NCBI GenBank assembly: GCA_021904315.1
Contig: CM038923.1
Span: 13,274,038-13,338,037, forward strand
Direction of reading: 5' to 3'
Source of the DNA: Sphagnum magellanicum
Lineage: Eukaryota > Streptophyta > Sphagnopsida > Sphagnales > Sphagnaceae
DNA: 64,000 bases
Shown here piece after piece: positions 2,585 to 61,005 of the stretch. The notes under the pieces are model-generated. The model was not told the DNA's origin. It saw nothing but the letters and a program-made list of their open reading frames with translations, and did no database searches. Made by a program: the position numbers and the translations under genes. Position 1 is the first letter of the stretch; each line of letters starts with the position of its first letter.

Positions 2585-3188
2585 TCTACCTGCTCTTCAT
2601 AATCATCTTCTTCTTCTCCTGCTTGTTCTTCCTCCTCCACATCATCAACTTCTCCTCCTCCTCCTTGTTCTTCCTCCTCCACATCATCATCTTCTTCTCT
2701 TTCTTGTTCTTCCTCCTCCACATCATCATCTTCTTCTCCTTCTTGTTCTTCCTCCTCCACATCATCATCTTCTCCTCCTCCGCCTCCTTGTTCTTCCTCC
2801 TCCACATCATCATCTTCTTCTCCTCCTCATTCTTCCTCCTCCACATCATCATCTTCTTCTCTTCCTCGTTGTTCTTTCTCCTCCACATCATCATCTTCTT
2901 CTCCTCCTCGTTCTTCCTCCTCCACATCATCATCTTCTTCTTCCTCCACATCGTCATCTTCTCCTCCTCCACATCATCATCATCTTCTTCTCCCTCTTGT
3001 TCTTCCTTCTCCACATCATCATCATCATCATCATCTCCTCCTCCTTGCTCTTCCTCCTCCACATCATCATCTTTTTCTCCTCCTTGTTCTAACTCCTCAT
3101 CATTGAATGTCATCATCTTTTTCTTCCTCATCACCATTTCTTTTTTTTGGGCTTCTTCTTCATCATCATCATCGTCTTCTTCTCTTTA
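2585..3188. repeat. CTT/CTC-rich compound minisatellite, open in both strands
   Basis: A roughly 40-bp unit repeats about 12 times: a pyrimidine block (TTCTTCCTCCTCC), then ACATCATCATC, then TTCTTCTCC. Because unit lengths are near multiples of three, it is open over about 200 codons on both strands. The + strand gives a Phe/Leu/Ser chain; the - strand gives an acidic D/E and Met/Lys chain. Neither looks like a known protein and both are explained by the repeat. Confidence 0.9.
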
Positions 3189-5860: not shown

Positions 5861-6469
5861 AGGGTTTTGTGTTGAACGGTTTTAGGGTTTGGGAATGTCC
5901 CCCGTCCCCCCCCCGGGTTATTGATGACGGTGGTGTTTCATGTCGGCGAGAAGGACACATGTCTGTCCGGTTTCAACAAATGTGGAATGCAGTTGGCGGG
6001 GATCCAGGGAGCAAGATTTGGATTCTCTCGTACCAACGCGATCCAGAATCTGCTGCAATCACCGCACCTCTCGAAGATTTCTGCTTGCTCGCTGGCCGGA
6101 TCGAGCGCTCCTGGATTGCTCGCTTATGAGGAGATAGATCTGAGCAAAATTGGTGAAGAATCCACGCACCAAGACTCAACCCTAGTCATGCATGCTCACC
6201 GCGAGCGCATCCATCGTCGTCCTCGTCCTCGTCATCATGCTGATGCAACGAGCATGACGTGCCGTGTTTGCAGCAGAATCATGATCGGGATCTTCGGACA
6301 CATCACTACCCAAAGCCACGCCATGGAGTGTAGAAAGTAGTAGAAAGGAGAAGAAGAAGAAGAAGAAGAAGAAGCGCACTAGAAATACTAAACCCTGACC
6401 GCAACAGAGGAGGCCGTAGGATTGCAGCAGCAATCAATTTCGGAGAACAAGACCATCAAAACCATCATC
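5861..6469 (+). promoter_or_regulatory. 5' flank and probable 5' UTR of the CBS-domain gene
   Basis: GC content rises sharply from about 5870. A TTTTAGGGTTT telo-box-like motif lies at about 5880 and its complement AAACCCT near 6390; such motifs are common in plant promoters and leaders. A (GAA)n run sits at about 6351-6375. The exact transcription start cannot be read from sequence. Confidence 0.45.
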
Positions 6470-6884
6470 ATGGCCATGGGAGGAGTGTTCAAGCAAACGA
6501 AGGTGCAGGAATTGGTGCAGCACAAGGGGCGTTTGGTCGAGGTTCCCTACACGGCCACGGTGGGGGACACGCTCAACGCATTGCTGGCCAAGAATATTCT
6601 GGCGGTGCCTGTGGCAGCGCCGCCGGGGCAATGGGTGGGAGCGGGCGGGTCCATGATTATGGAGGCAGATAAGAGCACGGGGCAGATGCGGAAGCAGTAC
6701 ATCGGGATGGTGAGTGTGCTGGATATCCTCATCCACATCGTGGAGGAGGAAGGCGGCGAAGACGACTTCGCGGGTCGCCTCTCCTCTACTATCGCCTCTG
6801 TCATTGGTCACTCCCTTGAAGGTCTCAGTCTCTGGACTGTCAGCCCTAATGCCTCGTAAGGCTCTCTTGCTCCCCTGTCCTTTC

Positions 6885-6915
<31 letters not shown>

Positions 6916-8241
6916 TTCACAATTATGATGATTAAGGGTAAGCACATTAGGGTAATGCAATGTGATGATCAAAGGTACCCAATGTGGATGATGGGCAGGA
7001 GAGAGTTCTTGTCAGAAGATGGAAAGGGTTCTTGCAAGAAGATGGAAAGAGTTCTCACAAGAAGACTGAATGAGTTTCTTAGAAGAAATGAAGAGATTGC
7101 AGTGACTATGAGGAACGGTTGCATATGAACTGGCCAGTTAAGTCTTGGTGACAAATGCTTTTTTTTGTTCAGGGTATATGAGGCGATGGAGCCCATGAGT
7201 AAAGGCATTCATCGGGCTTTGGTTCCTGTGGAGAGCTTGATGCATCAACCACAACATGCACCCGTGGAAATTATGGAGTCGTCACCAGGCTACCACATGC
7301 TGACACAAACAGACATGGTGCGGTTTCTGCTTGTACATGCCAAGGAGCTGGAGTTTGTGACAGGGCTCAGCGTAAGCACATTAGGGTTAATGCAAACCAG
7401 TGTGTTTGCTGCCCCAAGCAATATGAAGGTGATGGATGTTGTCAAGTGCATGCGCAACGTGTCCCTTGCAGCTGTTGCAATTGTGGAGAATTCGCCTGAC
7501 ATCTCCCCTGATGACCCTATGCTTGTCATTGTGAGTATACCCTTCTCCTTCCCGTTAACTGGCTAGAAACACAATGCCTTGCTTCTCCTGTTGGAGATCA
7601 TGAGTGAGTAGACCCACTGCTTAAAGTGCACATGTTTTGTTAATGTAGCACAGCTCAGCAGCTTCTTCCCTTTATACAACATGATGCAAAGAATTTCTCT
7701 TCATGTTGAAATCAGTGGTAGCTATCCATGGGGCTTTGAAGCTTTCCAGGTTGTCCTGACTCTGATGCATGTCCACAAGAGTAGGTAGTCAGTCCTGTTG
7801 CTCTTGTTGCAAAATCATTCGAGGTGAAGAACAGACATGTATGACAATTGAATGTGATTGATTTTGCAACAGGGGCGTGGCAGGAAGCTTTTGGGCAAAT
7901 TCTCAGCAAGTGATTTGCGAGGTTGCACAGCCGAGGTACTTCAGGCCTGGTCATCACTGTCAATCATGGACTTCTTTGGCAAAGCAAGTGTGGCACAGCA
8001 GTTTGGGGTGGGAGCAGCAGCAGCATATCACAAGGAGGGCTCTTTTGACTCCCGTGAAATGGTCTCCCCTCCTGTAACATGCTATCTTACTTCATCCCTC
8101 CAAGAAGTGATGTCAACAGCTTTGCAGAATCATGTTCATCATGTATGGGTTGTTGATAACCAAGGTCTGCTTCTAGGTGTTGTGACATTTTCTGACATTA
8201 TGAAAGTGGTGCGGAACTTCCCTTCAAAACAGCTTTTTTAG
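6470..8241 (+). CDS. Four-CBS-domain protein, PV42/SNF4-like type
   Basis: Three exons join in frame: 6470-6855, 7173-7530 and 7873-8241 (TAG), giving 370 aa. ATG 6470 is the first in-frame ATG of this exon. Exon 1 carries RLVEVPYTATVGDTLNALL, then PVAAPPGQWVGAGGSMI, then YIGMVSVLDILIHI. Exon 2 carries HRALVPVESL, a YHMLTQTDMVRFLL segment and STLGLMQTSVFAAPS. Exon 3 carries GRKLLGKFSASDLRGC, and at the C-terminus VHHVWVVDNQGLLLGVVTFS. This is the layout of plant proteins with two CBS pairs related to the AMPK/SnRK1 gamma subunit (SNF4, PV42a/b). Such proteins are thought to sense adenosine nucleotides or regulate partners; that role here is inference from the family. The length fits. A (GT)n microsatellite (about 6885-6909) lies in intron 1. 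No truncation is seen. Confidence 0.9.
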
Positions 8242-11473: not shown

Positions 11474-12856
11474 CCAAGTACAGTAGTGAGGAAAGAAAGA
11501 AAGAAAGAAAGAAGGATGTTTCTAGCATTGATTTGTTTGTTTTTTATTTTTCCCTTTTTTCTTTTTCCTTTTTTTCTTTTCTCTTGGCCACCCATGTTTT
11601 GATTTCTAGAATTTGATTTAATTTCTATTTTTTTTTAATTTATAAATAATTTTAGCTCACCCATGTTTTGTTCTTGAGAAGCAAGAAGAAGAAGAAGAGT
11701 TTTGCAATGTCCAGAAGAAGAAGAAGAAGAAGGAGTCAATAAGAACATCCCATGACCCAAGAGTTGTTGTTTTGTTTTCTGGTTGTCGGTCTGCAGACAA
11801 ATTAGCTCCAATCCCCAAACCTCGAAGTTCGTTGTCTTTTTCCTTTTTTTTTGGCTGTGTTTTTTTTTAGGGTTTTTTTTCCCCCACTTTCAGGAAAATC
11901 CGGAACATGTTGCAGCTTTTTTTTTTAATCATAGATCTGATTGCAGTCAAAAACTCTCATACCCATCAATTTTATTTTTTTGTTCCTCTGTGCAAAAAGT
12001 GTGACTGACACAATCGAATTCCTAGAATCATCACCATCATCATCAGTTGCAGCAGCAGTAGCTCGAGATTCAAGCAGAGATGATCAAAAGACTGGCAAAC
12101 TGGCACTTCTTTTCTGTACTGAAATAGATATACCTTGAAGTTGTAAAAACTTTCCTGCAGAAGGAAATCTCCCAGAAAAATTTCTTCTCTTGTATTTCTT
12201 GATCAGCAGAAATAGGACAAATCTGCTTATGCCTTTTGCTCATGATCTTCAGCTTCTAGTCTAGTCTAGTTTCTCACTGAATGTGCCACTGACAAGTTTT
12301 GGAACTGAGGAAGAAGAAAGAGCTGCCTGCCGTGAGAACTAAGAAGCTGCAGATCAAGCATGGATCCCTTCTTTAGCTTCCTCCAGAGTCCAGCAGCTAC
12401 TAGAAGACATGATAGACAGCTTTAGGTTAGATAGAATTAGGGTTTAGTGCAATAGTTGAAGAGCTTGCTGGACATCAGCTGCTCCTGGCTGGCTGGCTGG
12501 CTGGCTTGTTCTTTTTTCTGTTGCCTGGGTCTTTTTTTGATGTTGATTTCAAGCAGCAGTTGGGAAACTGGGTTCATGTGAGCTTGTCTGCAGTTGATCA
12601 AAGCAGCATTCATACCTTCACAATTGCAGCTTCTGCTGCAGCTGGAAGCAAAATTGAAAAGTTGCAGAACAAGTGTGAGAGCAAGCAAGCAAGCAAAGCT
12701 TGCAGGGTTGGTGGGTTGGTTCTTCTCATCAAGAGCTGCACTCCTGTTGTGATGACAGTACTTATGTGGTGGCTACAAATTAGTGGGTAGAGGGATCAGA
12801 AGAGGTGCAGAGTTGCTGCTGCAGGGAGAGAGTAATTGTATCCATCAAGACATCAG
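9947..12856. other. AT-rich intergenic DNA with microsatellites, then probable 5' region of the Kir-type gene
   Basis: Simple repeats: (TTA)n about 10130-10170, (TA)n 10804-10838 and 11077-11100, (GA)n about 11440-11468, (GAAA)n about 11490-11512, (GAA)n near 11683-11735. A TTAGGGTTTAGGGTTT telo-box pair lies at about 9976-9991. From about 11650 base composition becomes less AT-rich and resembles leader sequence, with CAG-rich stretches up to the start codon at 12857. An in-frame TAA (12833) closes the reading frame upstream. No other coding exon is recognised. Confidence 0.5.
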
Positions 12857-13599
12857 ATGTCCTCAAAGATGTGGAAAGAGAAGAAGGAATGGGTTCGGCC
12901 AGATGATTCAGAGCCTCCTCCAAGGCTGAAAGGAAAGGCAGCTTTGCGATCTGTAAAAGTGAGAGAGCTGCTATTGCGCTTATATTCAGCTCATAAGCAG
13001 CATCTTTTGTTCTTATAAGATGATAATGTGTTGCTCAGCTATCAACATGATGATGGGTTGCTCAGGTATCAACATGAATATGATGTGTTTTTTTGCTGCA
13101 AGGAGTGAGTTTCTGAAGTTTTTTGCTGCTGCTTCTGTTTTTGCTTCTTGGCTGTGTAATTTTGTGCAGGTGCAGCAAGAGGAAAGCATGATGAGTCGAG
13201 TATACAATGCATATATCTACACATTGCGCTTACCACTTCATCTCTTCTTCCTCATGATGTTTTCAAGTCCAATTCTTCTGAGTATTATATTCACAGGTCT
13301 CTATTTGCTAGACCTAGAGGGCTTATATGTTCCTCAAGATCATCAACCTCACGCTGAATCATTGCAGCACCACCACCAAATTCACAAAACATCTACTTCT
13401 TTGAGTTTGTGGGAAGTTTTCTATGTGTTGTGTGGTGGCGAAGATCGATTCAAGATCTTCATCTTCAGTCTCTCCTTGTCAACTACATTCGGCGGCACTA
13501 GGGTTGAGGCAAGATCACCATATACTCTTCTTTTGGCAAACCTGAATACCTTGATGGCTCAACTCATCTTTGTCTTCCTCAGTGGTGCAGGTGGTCTTC

Positions 13600-13639
<40 letters not shown>

Positions 13640-15329
13640 AAGAGAACTATAACATTGATTTTGTTTATGAACTTTGACATCTTTTGAATGGATTACAATA
13701 TGATTTGCACCTTCTTCTTCTTCTTCTGCAGAGTTGAGTTACTCATGTGTTTTGCAACACAATGGCAACATTGAATGCAGTATTTCACAGGTTATCACAG
13801 CCTTCAGAGCCAATCCGCTGGTCACAAGTAGCACTCATCACAAGCGACAAATTTACTGAGCATTCATTCAAGAAGTTGCATCCTGATGAGAACCCCCCCA
13901 AGTACATACAATCCTCTCTTTTTTTACCATCCTTCCTTTTCCACCTCTCCACCTTCTTCTGACCCACTTGTTCTTCTCCCCTCCTTGAAGCTTCAAAGCT
14001 CTTCTGCAGCTGGCCAGCAGAGATTTGCAATTGGTTTTGTTTCAGTGAAGAGACTGGTTGTGATTAGGGTTTAGGGTTTTTTTTCAAAGCTTTCCCCCTG
14101 ATCTGCTGCAGACAGTCCTGCCAATTTAGTACACAAAAAAATGGGTAGTTTTATAAGATCCATCCTCCTGCTTTGAGAGCATAAGTGAGAGTGTCTCTTC
14201 TTAACTTTGCAGTGTACAAAGCTTTTGAGAACGTTCCAGAGATTTCTCTCTTCTTTGATCAAGCTTGAGCTAGGGCAGACAACATAGACATATGCAGAAA
14301 TCAATAATAGATTCACAAACTGTCAATTGTTCATTTTTTTTGTCTGTTTTTTGTTTGGGGGTGGGCAGGTCATTTCTGCTGCGGCTGAATTTGACAAACC
14401 CAACAGACATGGTTCTGATAGATTGCAAATTCCAGTTGGTATATCGGCGCTTTTTGACATCTCCAGGCCAGTTGTCTCCATACATCACAACTGTACCCTT
14501 GAAGCTGATGCATGCTGAAGTTGCTTACCTTCGATACGCCTTAGTTATTCGCCATGTAATTGATGATGAGAGCCCTCTTTATGGACTAGACATCGAGGTG
14601 GGTCATGTTGTTAACCTCCCCCGCCAGCTTTTTTTGCATGTTTCTTCTCTTTTTTCTCTTTGTTTTTCACTTCTGGTGTTGACTTTATCCTAACATGCGT
14701 GTTGTTTTAACCTTTCTAGGCTGAAGAACATCATGATCATATTACAGGTTCCAAATTGTCTAAACAGATTTTGTCTTTTAACTTGGTAATCTCTGGATTA
14801 TTAGAATGGGTAAAGCTGTGAATCCCTGCTAGTTGTGTGTACTTTCTTTAGGTAAAATTGCATCTTGATCTGAGCTTTCTCTGAAATGGAAAAGGCAGGC
14901 CAGGGTTGGGTGCTAGAGTGTTCCTTTGACTCAGGGTTAGAAAATACTCACCTGAGTGCTAATTTGTGTAGAGAATTGGGTGTGTGAACTCATCAGCTAT
15001 CACAAATGTTTTTGGGTGTCGGGGTGGCATGGTGGGTTCAAATTCAGCAGGCATTTAAGGCACAAGATGCATCATTCACAATTACAGTGTCTGGAGTGGA
15101 GCGCTCGTCAATGCAGCCAGTGTTCAGCGAGCGTCTGTATGCAGTTGCTGATGGAGATGTGTTGTGGGACCGTCAATTTGAGGATCAGATACACACAGAT
15201 CAGTATGGACGCTCTGTGTTCTACAGTAATCGTCTTAGCCGCTTGAAGCCTCTTGAGGCGGCTGGTGATGTCAATACCCAAGATGAAGCTAGCAATAATA
15301 ATCACAGAAAGAAGCCAAAAGTGCAATGA
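12857..15329 (+). CDS. Kir-type inward-rectifier potassium channel homologue with aberrant selectivity filter
   Basis: Five exons join in frame: 12857-12958, 13170-13590, 13781-13901, 14369-14597 and 15051-15329 (TGA), giving 383 aa. In exon 2 the acceptor could also be 6 bases further on (13176). N-terminal PPRLKGKAALRSVK is followed by an interfacial segment and TM1 (about residues 55-81, LHLFFLMMFSSPILLSIIF). A His-rich loop comes next (82-113), then a pore-helix region (115-138) and TM2 (about 153-175, LLLANLNTLMAQLIFVFLSG). The cytoplasmic domain has IRWSQVALIT (186-195), FLLRLNLTNPTDMVLIDCKF (217-236), the Kir signature VIDDESPLYGLDIE (278-291), FTITVSGVE and a WDRQFED strand. The family forms tetrameric K+ channels with a large cytoplasmic immunoglobulin-like domain. 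Here Thr140-Phe-Gly-Gly-Thr144 replaces the T-I-G-Y-G filter, so K+ selectivity is doubtful. The location (plasma membrane or endomembrane) is unknown. The model is intact, with no frameshift. Confidence 0.85.
13602..13636. repeat. (CT)n microsatellite in intron 2 of the Kir-type gene
   Basis: About 17 CT dinucleotides begin 11 bases after the exon 2 donor at 13591. Confidence 0.95.
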
Positions 15330-16474
15330 AGCAAACACAAATGACCAAAAAGTGAAGCTCATTTACTTGTGTTTGAAACCAGATTTCCTTAGCAATCAGA
15401 AAATTCTCCAGAGCCTTAATATGGAATCTTTTAACATAGCACAAATTGGACATTGTTAAATACATACCAAACCACTGATGGGTATTCTTCAACCCTATCT
15501 GGGTTTCATCTAAATTGGGTATTCTTGCAAATTCATGTGGCAAATGGTTTCAACTCCATATTCTTGTGTGTTATTATTGAGGAACTATGTGTTATCGAGG
15601 GTAATTTAGGTTTTGGCTTGGGGTCTTAGGGCTTTGCTTGATTTTAGTAGTTGTCACAACCTTATACATATTTTGGATAATCAAGCATTGGAATCTTCAG
15701 ATTCAAATTTTATATTCACCATTGCTCATTGTTGATGCTTTGGTTCATGTCAATGTAGATTTGTTTTCTGTTCGACAATGTTGGAAAACAACTTGTAGTC
15801 TTTCCATCATGAACTTGAGTTCATCTCATCCCATTTTGACAAGCCATGAAAGTTGAACAATGGGTATTGAATGCTCATCTCAACACACCTTGTGCATCAA
15901 TAATTTTTGACATATCATATGATCACCATCAAGGGTAATAGCGAAGTTTCATCATCTATGCTTGCTCACACCTTGTCATCCTCCATTCATCATCAGTTTC
16001 ACCAATGCATTGACATTGTCATCTTTACAAATGGGGTATTATTATGTACCTTAACAATTGTTATTGTTGTATGATTTTCTTTCTTTCTTGGCATCTATGT
16101 GTGGTATAAGAGGATTGAAAGCAACCCATGCCAAAGAAACGAACTACCATTATTGCCACCCATTACATAGATTCCTTGCTTTAGAGGTGGAAATCTTTGG
16201 TTGTTTACATAAATGTAAGTTCATATTTTTTACTTCAAAAGTGTGGCAAAAACAATTGTGGGATAGCCCACAAAGTAACATTAACTATGTTGCTTTTGTG
16301 GGCTTTGGAGTTATGCCCTTTTGGCAATTGTTGGTTTTTTCAAGTAATTATGGGTTTTAATTGCTATTCAAACAGGACAAGCTTATCAACTATAATATGA
16401 ATTTGGAGTAATAAGGTTGGTTTTTGCTTGAATGCCTTTCCTTGCACTACCTTGGTAGAGAAGGTGAAAGTTTA
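15330..16474. other. 3' flank of the Kir-type gene, no further gene seen
   Basis: Moderately AT-rich. Frames up to 100 codons exist (for example near 16058) but show no family motif. The stretch ends at the edge of the copia remnant. Confidence 0.5.
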
Positions 16475-28028: not shown

Positions 28029-31000
28029 ATGAAGAAGATTCTGGGAGCTTGTAGAAGAGTTCAGACTAGAAGAAGAGGAGAACCTGATGATGACACCAGC
28101 TGCAAGTTACAGGTGATGAGATTAGCGACGTCAGCAATTCAACTGAGGAGATCAGGTTGGTTGCAAGCATGGGTGACATGGGTGCCACTCACACTACTAG
28201 CAGTTGCTGTGGCATCTATGTGCTTAGTGAGAGGAGTGTATGGCCAAACTGGCTTACCTGGGACCTGGGAGATTCTGTTGCAGAATGCCGGAATTGCATC
28301 AATGCACAGTGCTGTCACACGCTTCAATACAGTTGTATTGCTAGACAGGACAGATATTGGAGCTTCACAAATCCCGTTGGCAAGTAGGTACTTCATGAAA
28401 TCCACAACTCTCTTGATGAATCCCAGATTTATTTTTCTTCAGGACCCCTTCAATCACACCTATCATCCATTTATCAATTCCTCAAATCCTTGCACTGCTA
28501 CCCTAGACAATTATTGCTCTAGACAATCTCTCATCTGGGTTTGCAAGATCTCAAACTTCATTGCACTTCTGCACCAAAGTTCAAGATCTTGCAAACCCAG
28601 AAAAATCGAAGCATTCAGTAGATCAATCAAGAAAAAATAGCATTACATATATAGATATCTTGGGGTCAAAAATCTCACAGGATCATGCATTGTGTTTCTA
28701 TGCGTAATAGTCCCATTTGATGACCAAATTCGTTGAAAAGCAAATTAGATTTCTCTCCTGACGTTTCATGGATGTTTTAGATGTGGATTGAGCATTCACA
28801 AACCTTGAGATGAAATTCAGCAGCAGCAGTAGTACTCACCCAGGTTGGTGACATGAAAACACTGCTGGTGGTCATGTTTCAGATGGTGCATGCAGAAATG
28901 ACCCCAATGATCTCACACTGCAACATGATTGCACTGCACACTCAGTGCTGTTTGATCCAGCTACCAACACAGTGCGCCCCCTTACTATCCTCACTGACAC
29001 ATGGTGCTCCTCGGGACAGTTCAGCTCTGATGGCACTCTCGTCCAGACAGGTGGAGACTTCGATGGATTCAAAGTAGTCAGGTGGGTTCCAAAAGCCCAG
29101 ATCATTATGCACAGACCCATCTACTCTAGCTACACTACATTCTTCAAGCTTGAATCCTATTGAGTGGAATGGAAATACTTGTGCAATTCCTGACTCAGTC
29201 GTCATCATCCCTTGAGACAACAAGAGCTCCTTTGACTTTATTTCACTCTTCAAACAACAGCTGCTTCAAGAGCAATACTTAAAGAGCAATCATCCTCCAT
29301 GTTTCAGAAATCTAAACAAAGTTAATTGTGATCAACAACTTCCAAATCTCAAAAGAGGAAAGCTCACCAGGTGAAAGGCAGCTCTTTAGGTGGTTTGTGT
29401 TGTGTTGAAACACTCCAGCCAGATTCAGTCCAAATGAAAAACTTTCATTGTCGACTGAGGTTCTCTCTCACCCAAAAATAGATGCATCTTTTTACTTGTA
29501 CTTGATCTCGATCATGTGCAGGGAATTCTCTCCCTGTCCTGCAAATGGGACCTGTGACTGGGTAGAATTGACAACACCGGTATTGCAAGCAGGTCGCTGG
29601 TATGCAACAAACCATTTGCTGCCTGATGGAACACAAATCATAATTGGTGGGCGATCAGTCTTCACATTTGAATATATACCCCCCAATGGACAGGGACAAA
29701 TTTCACTCCCACTGCTAACTGCAACAAATGACGCTGAAGAAGACAATCTCTATCCTTACGTCTTTCTTCTGCCTGATGGAAATCTCTTCATCTTTGCAAA
29801 CACCAACTCCATCGTTTACAGCTACCTGACTGACACTGTTGTGTCAACTTTCCCTCCCCTTCCTGGAAACCCTCGGAACTACCCATCAGCTGGGTCAGCC
29901 GTGATGCTCCCCTTGCTTGCTTCAAACCAGTTTGCAGTAGTGGAGGTGTTAGTTTGTGGGGGGGCTCAGTATGGTGCTTTCCTGAGTGAAAACACGACTG
30001 AACCTTGTTCTACTTCCTGTGGTCGGATCACAGTGACTGATCCTGCTCCAGCTTGGGCCATGGAGACAATGCCAATACCTAGGTGTATGGGTGACATGAT
30101 CCTTCTTCCTTCCCAAGATATCCTTATCATCAACGGCGCCCAAGCAGGTACACTACCAAACATTTCTCATGAAGAAATTGGAGCTTATTGCATCTGCACA
30201 TCTCCTCTCCAAATTCTCCAGAAGTTTATTGAACTCAACATCAAGATTACAGGGTACTGGTTAGGGCTCACCATCACTTTGGTGGTAGTTGTGGATTCAA
30301 ATCCAGCTTGATTTCTGCAAAATCTGTTACTCATAGTTAGTTGATCCCTACTATGAGATATACACTCTACCCAGCTTCAGAAACCTGGGAGTTGAGATTG
30401 GTAGCGGAGTTGCCTAGATCCTTAGGACTGAAAAAAGTGTCTGCAACTCACCTAGGATTTCAAGCACAACTATGTTTTGCAATTCAGGTTCACAGGGATG
30501 GGGTTATGCTACCGATGCTGCACTCAACCCCGTATTGTACAGTTCAAATGCTGCTGTAGGTATGCGGTTTGCGCCATTGGCACCATCAACCATTGCTCGT
30601 ATGTATCACTCTACAGCCAATCTCCTGCCTGTGAGTGTCTGAGCCAATCACCCTACACATGATGATGAAATTTCAGATTCTGTCAGTGCTGGACCATAAC
30701 AACCACCCTGCAAGTCTCTGAACAGAAACTTCTTGAAGGATATTCTTTTAGCTGACTCACATCCCTGACTGAGCATTTTGTGAGATTGGCAAGGCAGCTG
30801 CTGTCTTTTATATGCTTAAGAAAAACATGGTGGCTACTGGTTTTTGGCAGGATGGTCGAATTCTTTGTGCAGGGAGCAATCCCCACCAATTCTACACCTT
30901 TAGTGGTCCATTTCCAACAGAGCTGAGACTAGATGCCTTTTCACCTCCGTATCTTGCACCTGCCCAGGATTCGTTGAGATGCACCATCACTGCAGCACCT

Positions 31001-31300
31001 GCCACAATCTTCTACAACACAAACTTCACCATCACTTTCACAGTTCCACTAGCCCCTGTAGCTCAGATTGAGCTCAACCTCTTGAGTGCTCCATTTGTGA
31101 CCCACTCTTTTGCTCAGGGCCAGCGTCTCCTCAGCTTAGCTACCACGGCTTATGTACCAACATCAAGCAACGAATATGACATAAGTGGCACAGGTCCACC
31201 TTCTCCTCAACTGGCCCCACCTTCTTACTACATGCTCTTCGCAGTCAACCAGGCCATTCCTGGCACTGCTGTCTGGGTTCAAGTTGCTGCTCCTCAGTGA
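28029..31300 (+). CDS. GLOX: Secreted glyoxal oxidase / galactose oxidase-like copper-radical enzyme
   Basis: Five exons join in frame: 28029-28383, 28883-29081, 29522-30147, 30488-30630 and 30851-31300 (TGA), 590 aa. A more likely start is the internal ATG 28116 (residue 30), which directly precedes a typical signal peptide: WVTWVPLTLLAVAVASMCLV, cleavage near VYG-QTG. The product would then be 561 aa, about the family length. Family hallmarks in order: HDCTAHSVLFDP, DTWCSSG (Cys160), GGDFDGFK, RWYATNHLLPDG, NLYPYVFLLPDG (Tyr262), RMYHSTANLLPDG (Tyr433-His434), CAGSNPHQFY, and VTHSF (His526). By analogy with galactose oxidase, Cys160-Tyr262 would form the thioether radical cofactor, with Tyr433, His434 and His526 as copper ligands. 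Plant GLOX enzymes oxidise aldehydes to acids with H2O2 release in the apoplast. The fold is a kelch propeller plus a C-terminal Ig-like domain. The catalytic set is complete; the substrate is not known. Confidence 0.92.
28535..28600. repeat. 24-bp inverted repeat in intron 1 of the GLOX gene
   Basis: Arm 1 (28535-28558) begins CTGGGTTTGCAAGATCT. Arm 2 (28577-28600) is its reverse complement with two mismatches, separated by an 18-nt loop. The pre-mRNA intron (28384-28882) would fold into a hairpin here. Confidence 0.9.
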
Positions 31301-55319: not shown

Positions 55320-55616
55320 GGGAATTGAAGTCGAACAAGTCCATGGGGCTATTTAAGTGGGGACAACCAAACACCAAGTGGATCAAGTCCATGGGCTGCC
55401 TAAGTGGAACAGCCAAAAGCCAAGGGGATCGAGTCCATGAGCTGTCTAAGTGGGACAACCAACCAAAAACCAAGAGGATCAGGTCCTTGGGCTTGCCAAT
55501 TGGGACAAACAACCAAAATCCAAGAGGACCAGGTCCTTGGGCTGGCTAAGTGAGACAACCAACCAAAAACCAAGGGGATGAAGTCCATGGGCTATTTGAA
55601 TGAGACAAACCAAAAC
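55320..55616. repeat. Diverged roughly 60-bp repeats
   Basis: Repeated blocks of the type AACCAAAAACCAAGAGGATC, AGGTCC(A)TGGGCT and AAGTGGGACAACC recur about five times and merge into the adjoining 40-bp array, suggesting a shared origin. Confidence 0.8.
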
Positions 55617-55935
55617 GAAGTGGAACAAGCCAAGGGCTAACTGGGTCCAGCAAATCGAAGTGGAACAAGCCAAGGGCTAACTGGGTCCAGCAAATCGAAG
55701 TGGAACAAGCCAAGGGCTAACTGGGTCCAGCAAATCGAAGTGGAACAAGCCAAGGGCTAACTGGGTCCAGCAAATCGAAGTGGAACAAGCCAAGGGCTAA
55801 CTGGGTCCAGCAAATCGAAGTGGAACAAGCCAAGGGCTAACTGGGTCCAGAAATTCGAAGTGGAACAAGCCAAGGCCTAACTGGGTCCAGAAATTCGAAG
55901 TGGAACAAGCCAAGGCCTACTGGGTCCAGCAAATC
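55617..55935. repeat. 40-bp minisatellite, eight copies
   Basis: TGGAACAAGCCAAGGGCTAA recurs exactly every 40 bp at 55621, 55661, 55701, 55741, 55781 and 55821. Two slightly diverged copies (CAAGGCCTA) follow at 55861 and 55901. The central copies are identical, so the array is recent. It ends about 0.5 kb before the CK2 alpha start codon. Confidence 0.97.
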
Positions 55936-56460
55936 GGAGTACACGACTAACTGGGCGAAGTGGGACAAGCAAAACAAGTGGAACCAGAAACTCTAGAGAG
56001 AGTAAACTGGAGTTAAAAAAAGACCAGGCTTTAACGGTGGTCAAAATTAGGGTTTGCGTTGAGCGGACATAGGGTCTTGTTGTTCGACAAGGAGAGAAGC
56101 TGTGGCGATGGCGCTTCGTGTGTGTTGTCGCTGCTGCTGCTGCTGCTGCAGTTGATCTTCTTGTTCTCGTGGGTTTCGTGATCTTCTCCGCTTGTTTTTC
56201 GGGATTTGTTTCACTTCTTCTTCGCAATGGTGTTTTTCATTTGATTTGTTGATTTTTTTTCCCCCCTGTTTATCGTATGGCAGATCTCTTTTGAGAGACG
56301 TACAAACAGACAGACACAGAGTGGACTCGTGCTCTGAGACGCAGACGCTTTTGAAGTTTTTTTCTTTATACCCGTCTTCTGCTGTTTGCTTCTTTTTTCT
56401 TTTTTGTTGAGAGGGAAGTGGGAAAAAGTCACAAAGGAAATAATCAAACGGGCCACATGA

Positions 56461-61005
<4,545 letters not shown>

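Follow-up and report, generated by a model that had tools for sequence, protein, structure and literature searches.

The window analysed here, a 64,000-nucleotide stretch of the Sphagnum magellanicum genome (C17:13274038-13338037), carries a five-exon gene for a putative Kir-type channel protein in which Thr-Phe-Gly-Gly-Thr stands at the place of the K+ selectivity filter. The gene model, named C17 after its contig, encodes 384 residues with zero stops and has a threonine at residue 140; positions 13485-13499 (ACATTCGGCGGCACT) encode T140-F-G-G-T144. All four introns are bounded by GT-AG, in phases 0, 1, 2 and 0. The parts of the gene, in window positions, are as follows.

12857-12958, forward strand: exon 1, residues 1-34 (N-terminus), an open frame from ATG to the donor GTGAGA, phase 0.
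13170-13590, forward strand: exon 2, residues 35-174, with slide helix, first transmembrane helix (TM1), turret, pore helix, filter and second transmembrane helix (TM2).
13236-13307, forward strand: TM1, residues 57-80, a helix in the AlphaFold model, with a hydropathy peak at 52-88.
13323-13439, forward strand: long turret, residues 86-124, with six histidines, little conserved among paralogues.
13440-13484, forward strand: pore helix, residues 125-139, ending in SLSLST, a helix in both AlphaFold models.
13485-13499, forward strand: T140-F-G-G-T144 at the K+ selectivity filter place, positioned by alignment; TFGG[T/S] in 4/5 stop-free modelled genes.
13518-13586, forward strand: TM2, residues 151-173, with A157, N158, N160, A164, Q165 and F168 invariant in five genes.
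13781-13901, forward strand: exon 3, the linker from TM2 to the cytoplasmic domain (VFHRLSQPSEPIRWSQVALIT), with VF.R.SQP invariant in five genes.
14369-14597, forward strand: exon 4, first part of the cytoplasmic Kir domain, containing RHVIDDESPLYG and matching IRK_C.
15048-15329, forward strand: exon 5, remaining cytoplasmic Kir domain and C-terminal tail, with the stop TGA at 15327-15329.

The cytoplasmic region matches the Pfam family IRK_C (PF17655) at 24.1 bits against a cut-off of 22.5 (residues 246-346), and all five members of the gene family described below match it at E up to 0.1. AlphaFold, supplied with an alignment, models exon 2 as slide helix, TM1, pore helix, filter coil and TM2 in that order. 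The pore helix spans residues 91-105 in exon numbering, and 91-107 in a poor single-sequence model of low confidence (predicted local distance difference test, pLDDT, 54.5). The six turret histidines (DHQPHAESLQHHHQIH, within 13323-13439) lie close to the pore mouth, are without conservation in the paralogues, and possibly form a metal or pH site.

The filter register was set by comparison with bacterial Kirs, comprising four plasmid-borne sequences (of nine plasmid records) and 80 of 141 prokaryote-genome matches; profile comparisons use all 84, and filter counts use 83, with the truncated row L003 left out. MAFFT aligns the plant pore with the 83 sequences ungapped from pore helix to TM2, and the focal TFGGT occupies the columns of the filter [T/S/A]xG[Y/F]G, which is present in 83/83. 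This ungapped register scores 0.1 bits, and the next-best window of the focal protein -34 bits. The plant-family profile matches the 84-sequence bacterial profile over 269 columns (probability 99.9, E 2.6e-31), again ungapped through the filter. Against three animal Kirs it reaches 96% and E 5e-9 and opens a 2-residue gap, and the two comparisons are unequal tests because the animal set is small and starts at the pore. An alternative register is produced by phmmer, which places the focal F-G-G beside the FGG of Kir6.2; GYG and GFG are absent from the focal protein in both registers. Another filter candidate, C122-G-G-E-D, was rejected: some 25 residues separate its end from TM2, and none of the other four modelled genes has it; a paralogous fragment on contig C8 has CSGKD.

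Among Kir columns conserved in at least 90% of sequences, the focal protein retains 22/34; within the filter, Gly142 is retained, and Tyr and Gly are lost. In the three forward frames of 12000-16000, G[YF]G occurs only at ~12891 and ~15609, neither of them within the exon 2 pore, and TxG[YF]G is reachable from the focal site only via four base changes. A sequence-only reading of the window had proposed an ungapped fit of TFGGT to bacterial Kir pores, with loss of the tyrosine and second glycine, and the alignment with 83 bacterial Kirs bears this out. Its further claims also hold: Kir architecture is kept, as judged by the IRK_C score and by the partly circular exon 2 model; the gene model is open, with five exons, GT-AG introns and 384 residues free of stops; and no forward frame supplies a GYG near the exon 2 pore.

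The departure from Kirs is concentrated in the pore helix and filter. The focal filter scores -0.10 per column (3.44 in bacteria, 2.87-3.59 in the three animal Kirs), and the pore helix -0.04 (2.73 and 1.06-1.53, respectively). TM2, at 0.27, is in line with the animal Kirs (0.28-0.63), the cytoplasmic domain, at 0.66, comes nearer the animal Kirs (0.82-1.13), and TM1 scores 0.52 versus 2.02 in bacteria. Compared with the sequences of solved structures, the focal protein matches 49 at E up to 1, all Kir-type, with Kir6.2 the best (E 3.6e-8); the family profile matches 44 at E up to 0.01, all Kir entries, with KirBac3.1 the best (E 1.8e-11). Sequence comparison shows the plant family to be homologous to Kirs.

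A protein search of the same genome (439 Mb, 31 contigs) revealed further loci on C8 (~12.606 and ~17.376 Mb), C1 (7.698 Mb), C2 (25.193 Mb), C16 (2.442 Mb) and C20 (1.947 Mb). Spliced models without stops, with GT-AG junctions only, were obtained for C8 at 12.6 Mb (362 residues), C1 (339), C2 (337) and C16 (318), the N- and C-termini of the last three not being fixed. Each of the raw C8 and C16 stretches has a single TGA; that on C8 is probably the gene's own end, and the C8 model terminates in TGA. Intron phases in C8 are identical to those of the focal gene. In the C1 and C2 models an intron lies within the pore helix, directly before LSLSTTFGG, an arrangement from which C17 and C8 differ.

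In the filter region, C17, C8 and the C8 fragment share LSLSTTFGGTRV, C1 and C2 share LSLSTTFGGSPV, C16 has LSLSTGLQPELV, and the broken copy on C20 has LSLLLSTLLGFTRV. LSLSTTFGG[T/S] is carried by four of the five stop-free modelled genes, and C16 has LSLSTGLQPE. The motif is longer than five residues, consisting of SLSTTFGG followed by a strongly conserved TM2. The C8 fragment at 17.4 Mb (end of exon 2 plus exon 3) retains STTFGG, and the C20 copy, which has stops, reads STLLGF, a drift that is expected because constraint is lost in a broken copy; together these two copies indicate family turnover. G[YFL]G occurs nowhere in the five modelled proteins, and GYG in no copy found, the C8 fragment and C20 included. 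The STTFGG codons differ synonymously among C17, C8, C1, C2 and the C8 fragment, so the four loci share the motif through descent and selection, not through a copying error. The C16 paralogue, on the reverse strand, combines a different non-GYG filter (LSLSTGLQPELVPV) with a well-kept TM2, and it may be a heteromer partner subunit.

Conservation was counted with the C8 fragment and the broken C20 copy excluded. Columns 135-143 are invariant (9/9) in the four STTFGG genes, compared with 112/313 overall (hypergeometric 8e-5), and in block 135-183, 28/48 columns are invariant in five genes, compared with 83/297 (1.2e-6); these values are descriptive rather than formal tests because the blocks were chosen after inspection. 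Between C17 and C8, 62/68 residues are identical in the pore block (129-196) and 12/38 in the turret. The nonsynonymous divergence (dN) of this pore block is 0.061 and its synonymous divergence (dS) 1.41, a ratio of 0.043, and the turret has a dN of ~1.0. C1 and C2 show a dN/dS of 0.128 over the modelled gene, with the cytoplasmic domain (0.041) and pore block (0.073) similarly constrained, and their filter block contains 0 nonsynonymous changes and 1 synonymous change. These data show that the altered filter and TM2 are under purifying selection. The invariant motif across divergent genes, together with the C1-C2 dN/dS of 0.13, argues against decay or assembly error. The sequence-only reading had named these as its refutations, and both are contradicted by the motif at four loci and by the C1-C2 ratio. 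Its proposal of selection on a changed pore stands as far as selection goes, the motif being invariant in four divergent paralogues, on which the claim now rests; of its two readings of that pore, altered selectivity is the more probable and non-conduction the main rival.

In a tree with Kirs, the five members form a single clade (100/100), with C17-C8 and C1-C2 as pairs and C16 separate. The family branch lies ~2.9 changes per column from the bacterial and animal Kirs (2.02 and 0.83 around the midpoint root), and when the focal protein is the only member in the tree, its terminal branch measures 5.0. On the five-member tree the program flags a meeting of long branches with the animal Kirs, and the trees do not place the point at which the family branch joins. 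A genome search with the Kir membrane domain (PF01007) at E up to 0.001 returned nothing (seven candidates scored), and because it ignores introns and missed the focal family, a canonical Kir partner may still be encoded in the genome; in 14 control genomes the same search gave a match in one, below the cut-off. Searches for relatives in viral contigs, plasmids and prokaryote genomes, the last with the plant protein alone as query, were unproductive.

We are highly confident that this is a Kir-fold family under selection without a K+ filter. In the mechanism we propose, the family would descend from bacterial-type Kir channels, combining a Kir pore module with an IRK_C cytoplasmic domain; its TxGYG filter would have been replaced, with SLSTTFGG apparently fixed in most members. 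The protein would form a tetramer in the manner of Kir channels, its pore gated by the IRK_C domain. T140 would retain the threonine of the innermost K+ site. With the Tyr ring and the second Gly missing, the carbonyl cage for dehydrated K+ could not form as in Kir, and ions would consequently pass with other or weak selectivity. Alignment to Kir2.1 predicts a cavity lined by T161, Q165, F168 and S172, and the last three of these do not vary among the five genes. F168 is aligned at the place of Kir2.1 Asp172, a residue with a role in rectification; with phenylalanine there, polyamine rectification would not be expected.

Taken as a whole mechanism, this pore, derived from Kir, kept by purifying selection and altered in its permeation, has, in our estimate, a probability of about 0.5. 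A bolder version is offered tentatively: a previously unlisted land-plant family of Kir-descended channels with a fixed new filter (SLSTTFGG) and its own conserved cavity (T161, Q165, F168) may conduct something other than K+, through a filter chemistry undescribed in any channel with two transmembrane helices.

Several points weigh against altered permeation or the evidence behind it. At E up to 10, PF01007 has no match in the focal protein, and it matches two of the five family members, weakly (best E 0.013). Bacterial Kirs were the basis of the AlphaFold model of exon 2, making its Kir topology partly circular, and comparison of this model with known structures does not separate Kir from other K+ channel pores: plant GORK is tied, and NaK and AKT1 are also among the matches. 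Openness of the paralogue models is partly by construction because the model-maker penalises stops, and one C1 donor and one C16 donor and acceptor were set by hand, at the turret and pore-helix start, outside the motif. Both conserved blocks were picked after the alignment had been inspected, and synonymous sites have reached saturation in most pairwise comparisons. The 9/9 invariance leaves out C16, whose filter differs wholly, and the family thus tolerates filter change. Conservation alone, moreover, is not proof of conduction because pore cores are buried and often kept for packing.

The main rival is a Kir-fold protein that does not conduct. It could be a subunit with a regulatory or scaffolding role, or a sensor of ligand or voltage; its pore core would be conserved for assembly, and it would act via IRK_C or by silencing or modifying other channels. 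The lack of G[YF]G in any copy found is consistent with this, as are the bulky ring that the invariant F168 would place in the cavity at the Asp172 position and the C16 member, which keeps the fold despite other filter residues; KCO3 (as described in part of PMC3694395) and TASK-5 (in part of PMC11364637) offer precedents. Set against it is a filter that is invariant in four genes, seemingly beyond structural need, with C16 managing without it. The PF01007 search, which gave no canonical Kir partner, counts weakly in the same direction, since it ignores introns and missed the focal family. We regard non-conduction as a possibility to be taken seriously, if a somewhat doubtful one.

A second rival is a shifted register. 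Were the true filter S138-T-T-F-G142, with F-G-G as in Kir6.2 and a pore helix two residues shorter, the Phe-Gly end would be kept and the pore could be nearer a K+ filter. The phmmer pairing with Kir6.2 and the 2-residue gap opened against the three animal Kirs favour this shift, which we retain because it scores 2.4 versus 0.14 bits on the bacterial profile when gap costs are ignored. It nevertheless requires two indels, and no gap is opened in the joint MAFFT alignment or in the stronger of the profile matches, the one to 84 bacterial Kirs. The post-filter loop and the linker from TM2 to the cytoplasmic domain are, in addition, of bacterial and not animal length, and the central filter glycine is lost even so; we judge the shift unlikely. 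A pseudogene, an assembly error or a wrong exon choice is very improbable. Two other copies are indeed degenerate (the C8 fragment and C20 with its stops), but the focal gene has five open exons with GT-AG sites, the motif recurs, with codons that differ synonymously, at four loci and in a fragment, purifying selection is seen, and the truly broken C20 copy has lost the motif. A hidden GYG exon was rejected along with decay and assembly error, there being no forward-frame G[YF]G near the pore, four base changes to make and the same motif at four loci.

Elsewhere in the window, the Kir-like gene is preceded upstream by a gene for a CBS-domain protein (6392-8241). A glyoxal oxidase gene (Glyoxal_oxid_N and GO-like_E_set) has exons at 28029-31300, and the first exons of a CK2 alpha kinase gene occupy 56461-57479, where an exon matches CK2 alpha entries, those from maize at the top, and gives the window a plant-like character. 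Minisatellites are present at 224-728 (23-bp unit, 22 copies), 2602-3098 (39-bp unit, 12 copies) and 55611-55940 (40-bp unit, 8.3 copies at 97%).

Known plant channels offer few parallels. The relevant part of PMC3694395 divides Arabidopsis K+ channels into two families, Shaker and TPK, with the 'Kir-like' group consisting of truncated TPKs, and a 2021 TPK paper applies 'Kir-like' to KCO3 in the part concerned (PMC8619664). KCO3 shares with the focal protein two membrane helices and one pore, and acts under osmotic stress independently of K+ transport, according to the same part of PMC3694395. The focal protein differs in being a Kir homologue with an IRK_C domain; the TPK-type TxGYGD motif is absent from it, and its matches in the Pfam and solved-structure searches are Kirs only. 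In the corresponding part of their survey, Gomez-Porras et al. describe TM-P-TM K+ channels as apparently absent in Selaginella and Physcomitrella and list for Selaginella two genes somewhat similar to animal large-conductance channels (PMC3410407). The Selaginella check described there searched for GYG and would therefore, by design, be blind to the focal family (PMC3410407). No plant Kir family beyond the KCO3 'Kir-like' group was among the matches listed in a search of titles and abstracts of the open-licence literature; relatives may already be annotated in plant protein databases.

TASK-5, silent alone and functional as heterodimers according to part of PMC11364637, illustrates a mode that the plant protein could share, non-conducting alone and active as a heteromer partner. 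It differs in being a K2P channel, and its filter-defective G95E (GYG to EYG) is a human polymorphism, not a gene-family motif.

Among Kirs themselves, the animal Kir6.2, Kir2.1 and Kir3.2 share the fold and cytoplasmic domain with the plant protein, and F-G-G occurs in the Kir6.2 filter too. Their profile match is weaker, they are longer by two residues after the filter and by three in the linker from TM2 to the cytoplasmic domain, and Asp172 of Kir2.1 is Phe in the plant protein. KirBac1.1, KirBac3.1 and their relatives share the slide helix, TM1, pore helix, TM2, an IRK_C-type domain, the ID..SPLYG signature and the loop lengths. From these prokaryotic Kirs the plant protein differs in its filter, TFGGT in place of TxGYG, in the loss of the conserved pore-helix Thr and of the TM1 Trp and Asn, in its longer turret, and in the family's position on a long branch apart. 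If the proposed reading is true, the channel-like families of plants would be joined by one that derives from Kirs and carries a conserved substitute for their filter. Such a family would also be a natural experiment, showing what may come to occupy the K+ filter position when the remainder of the Kir machinery is retained.
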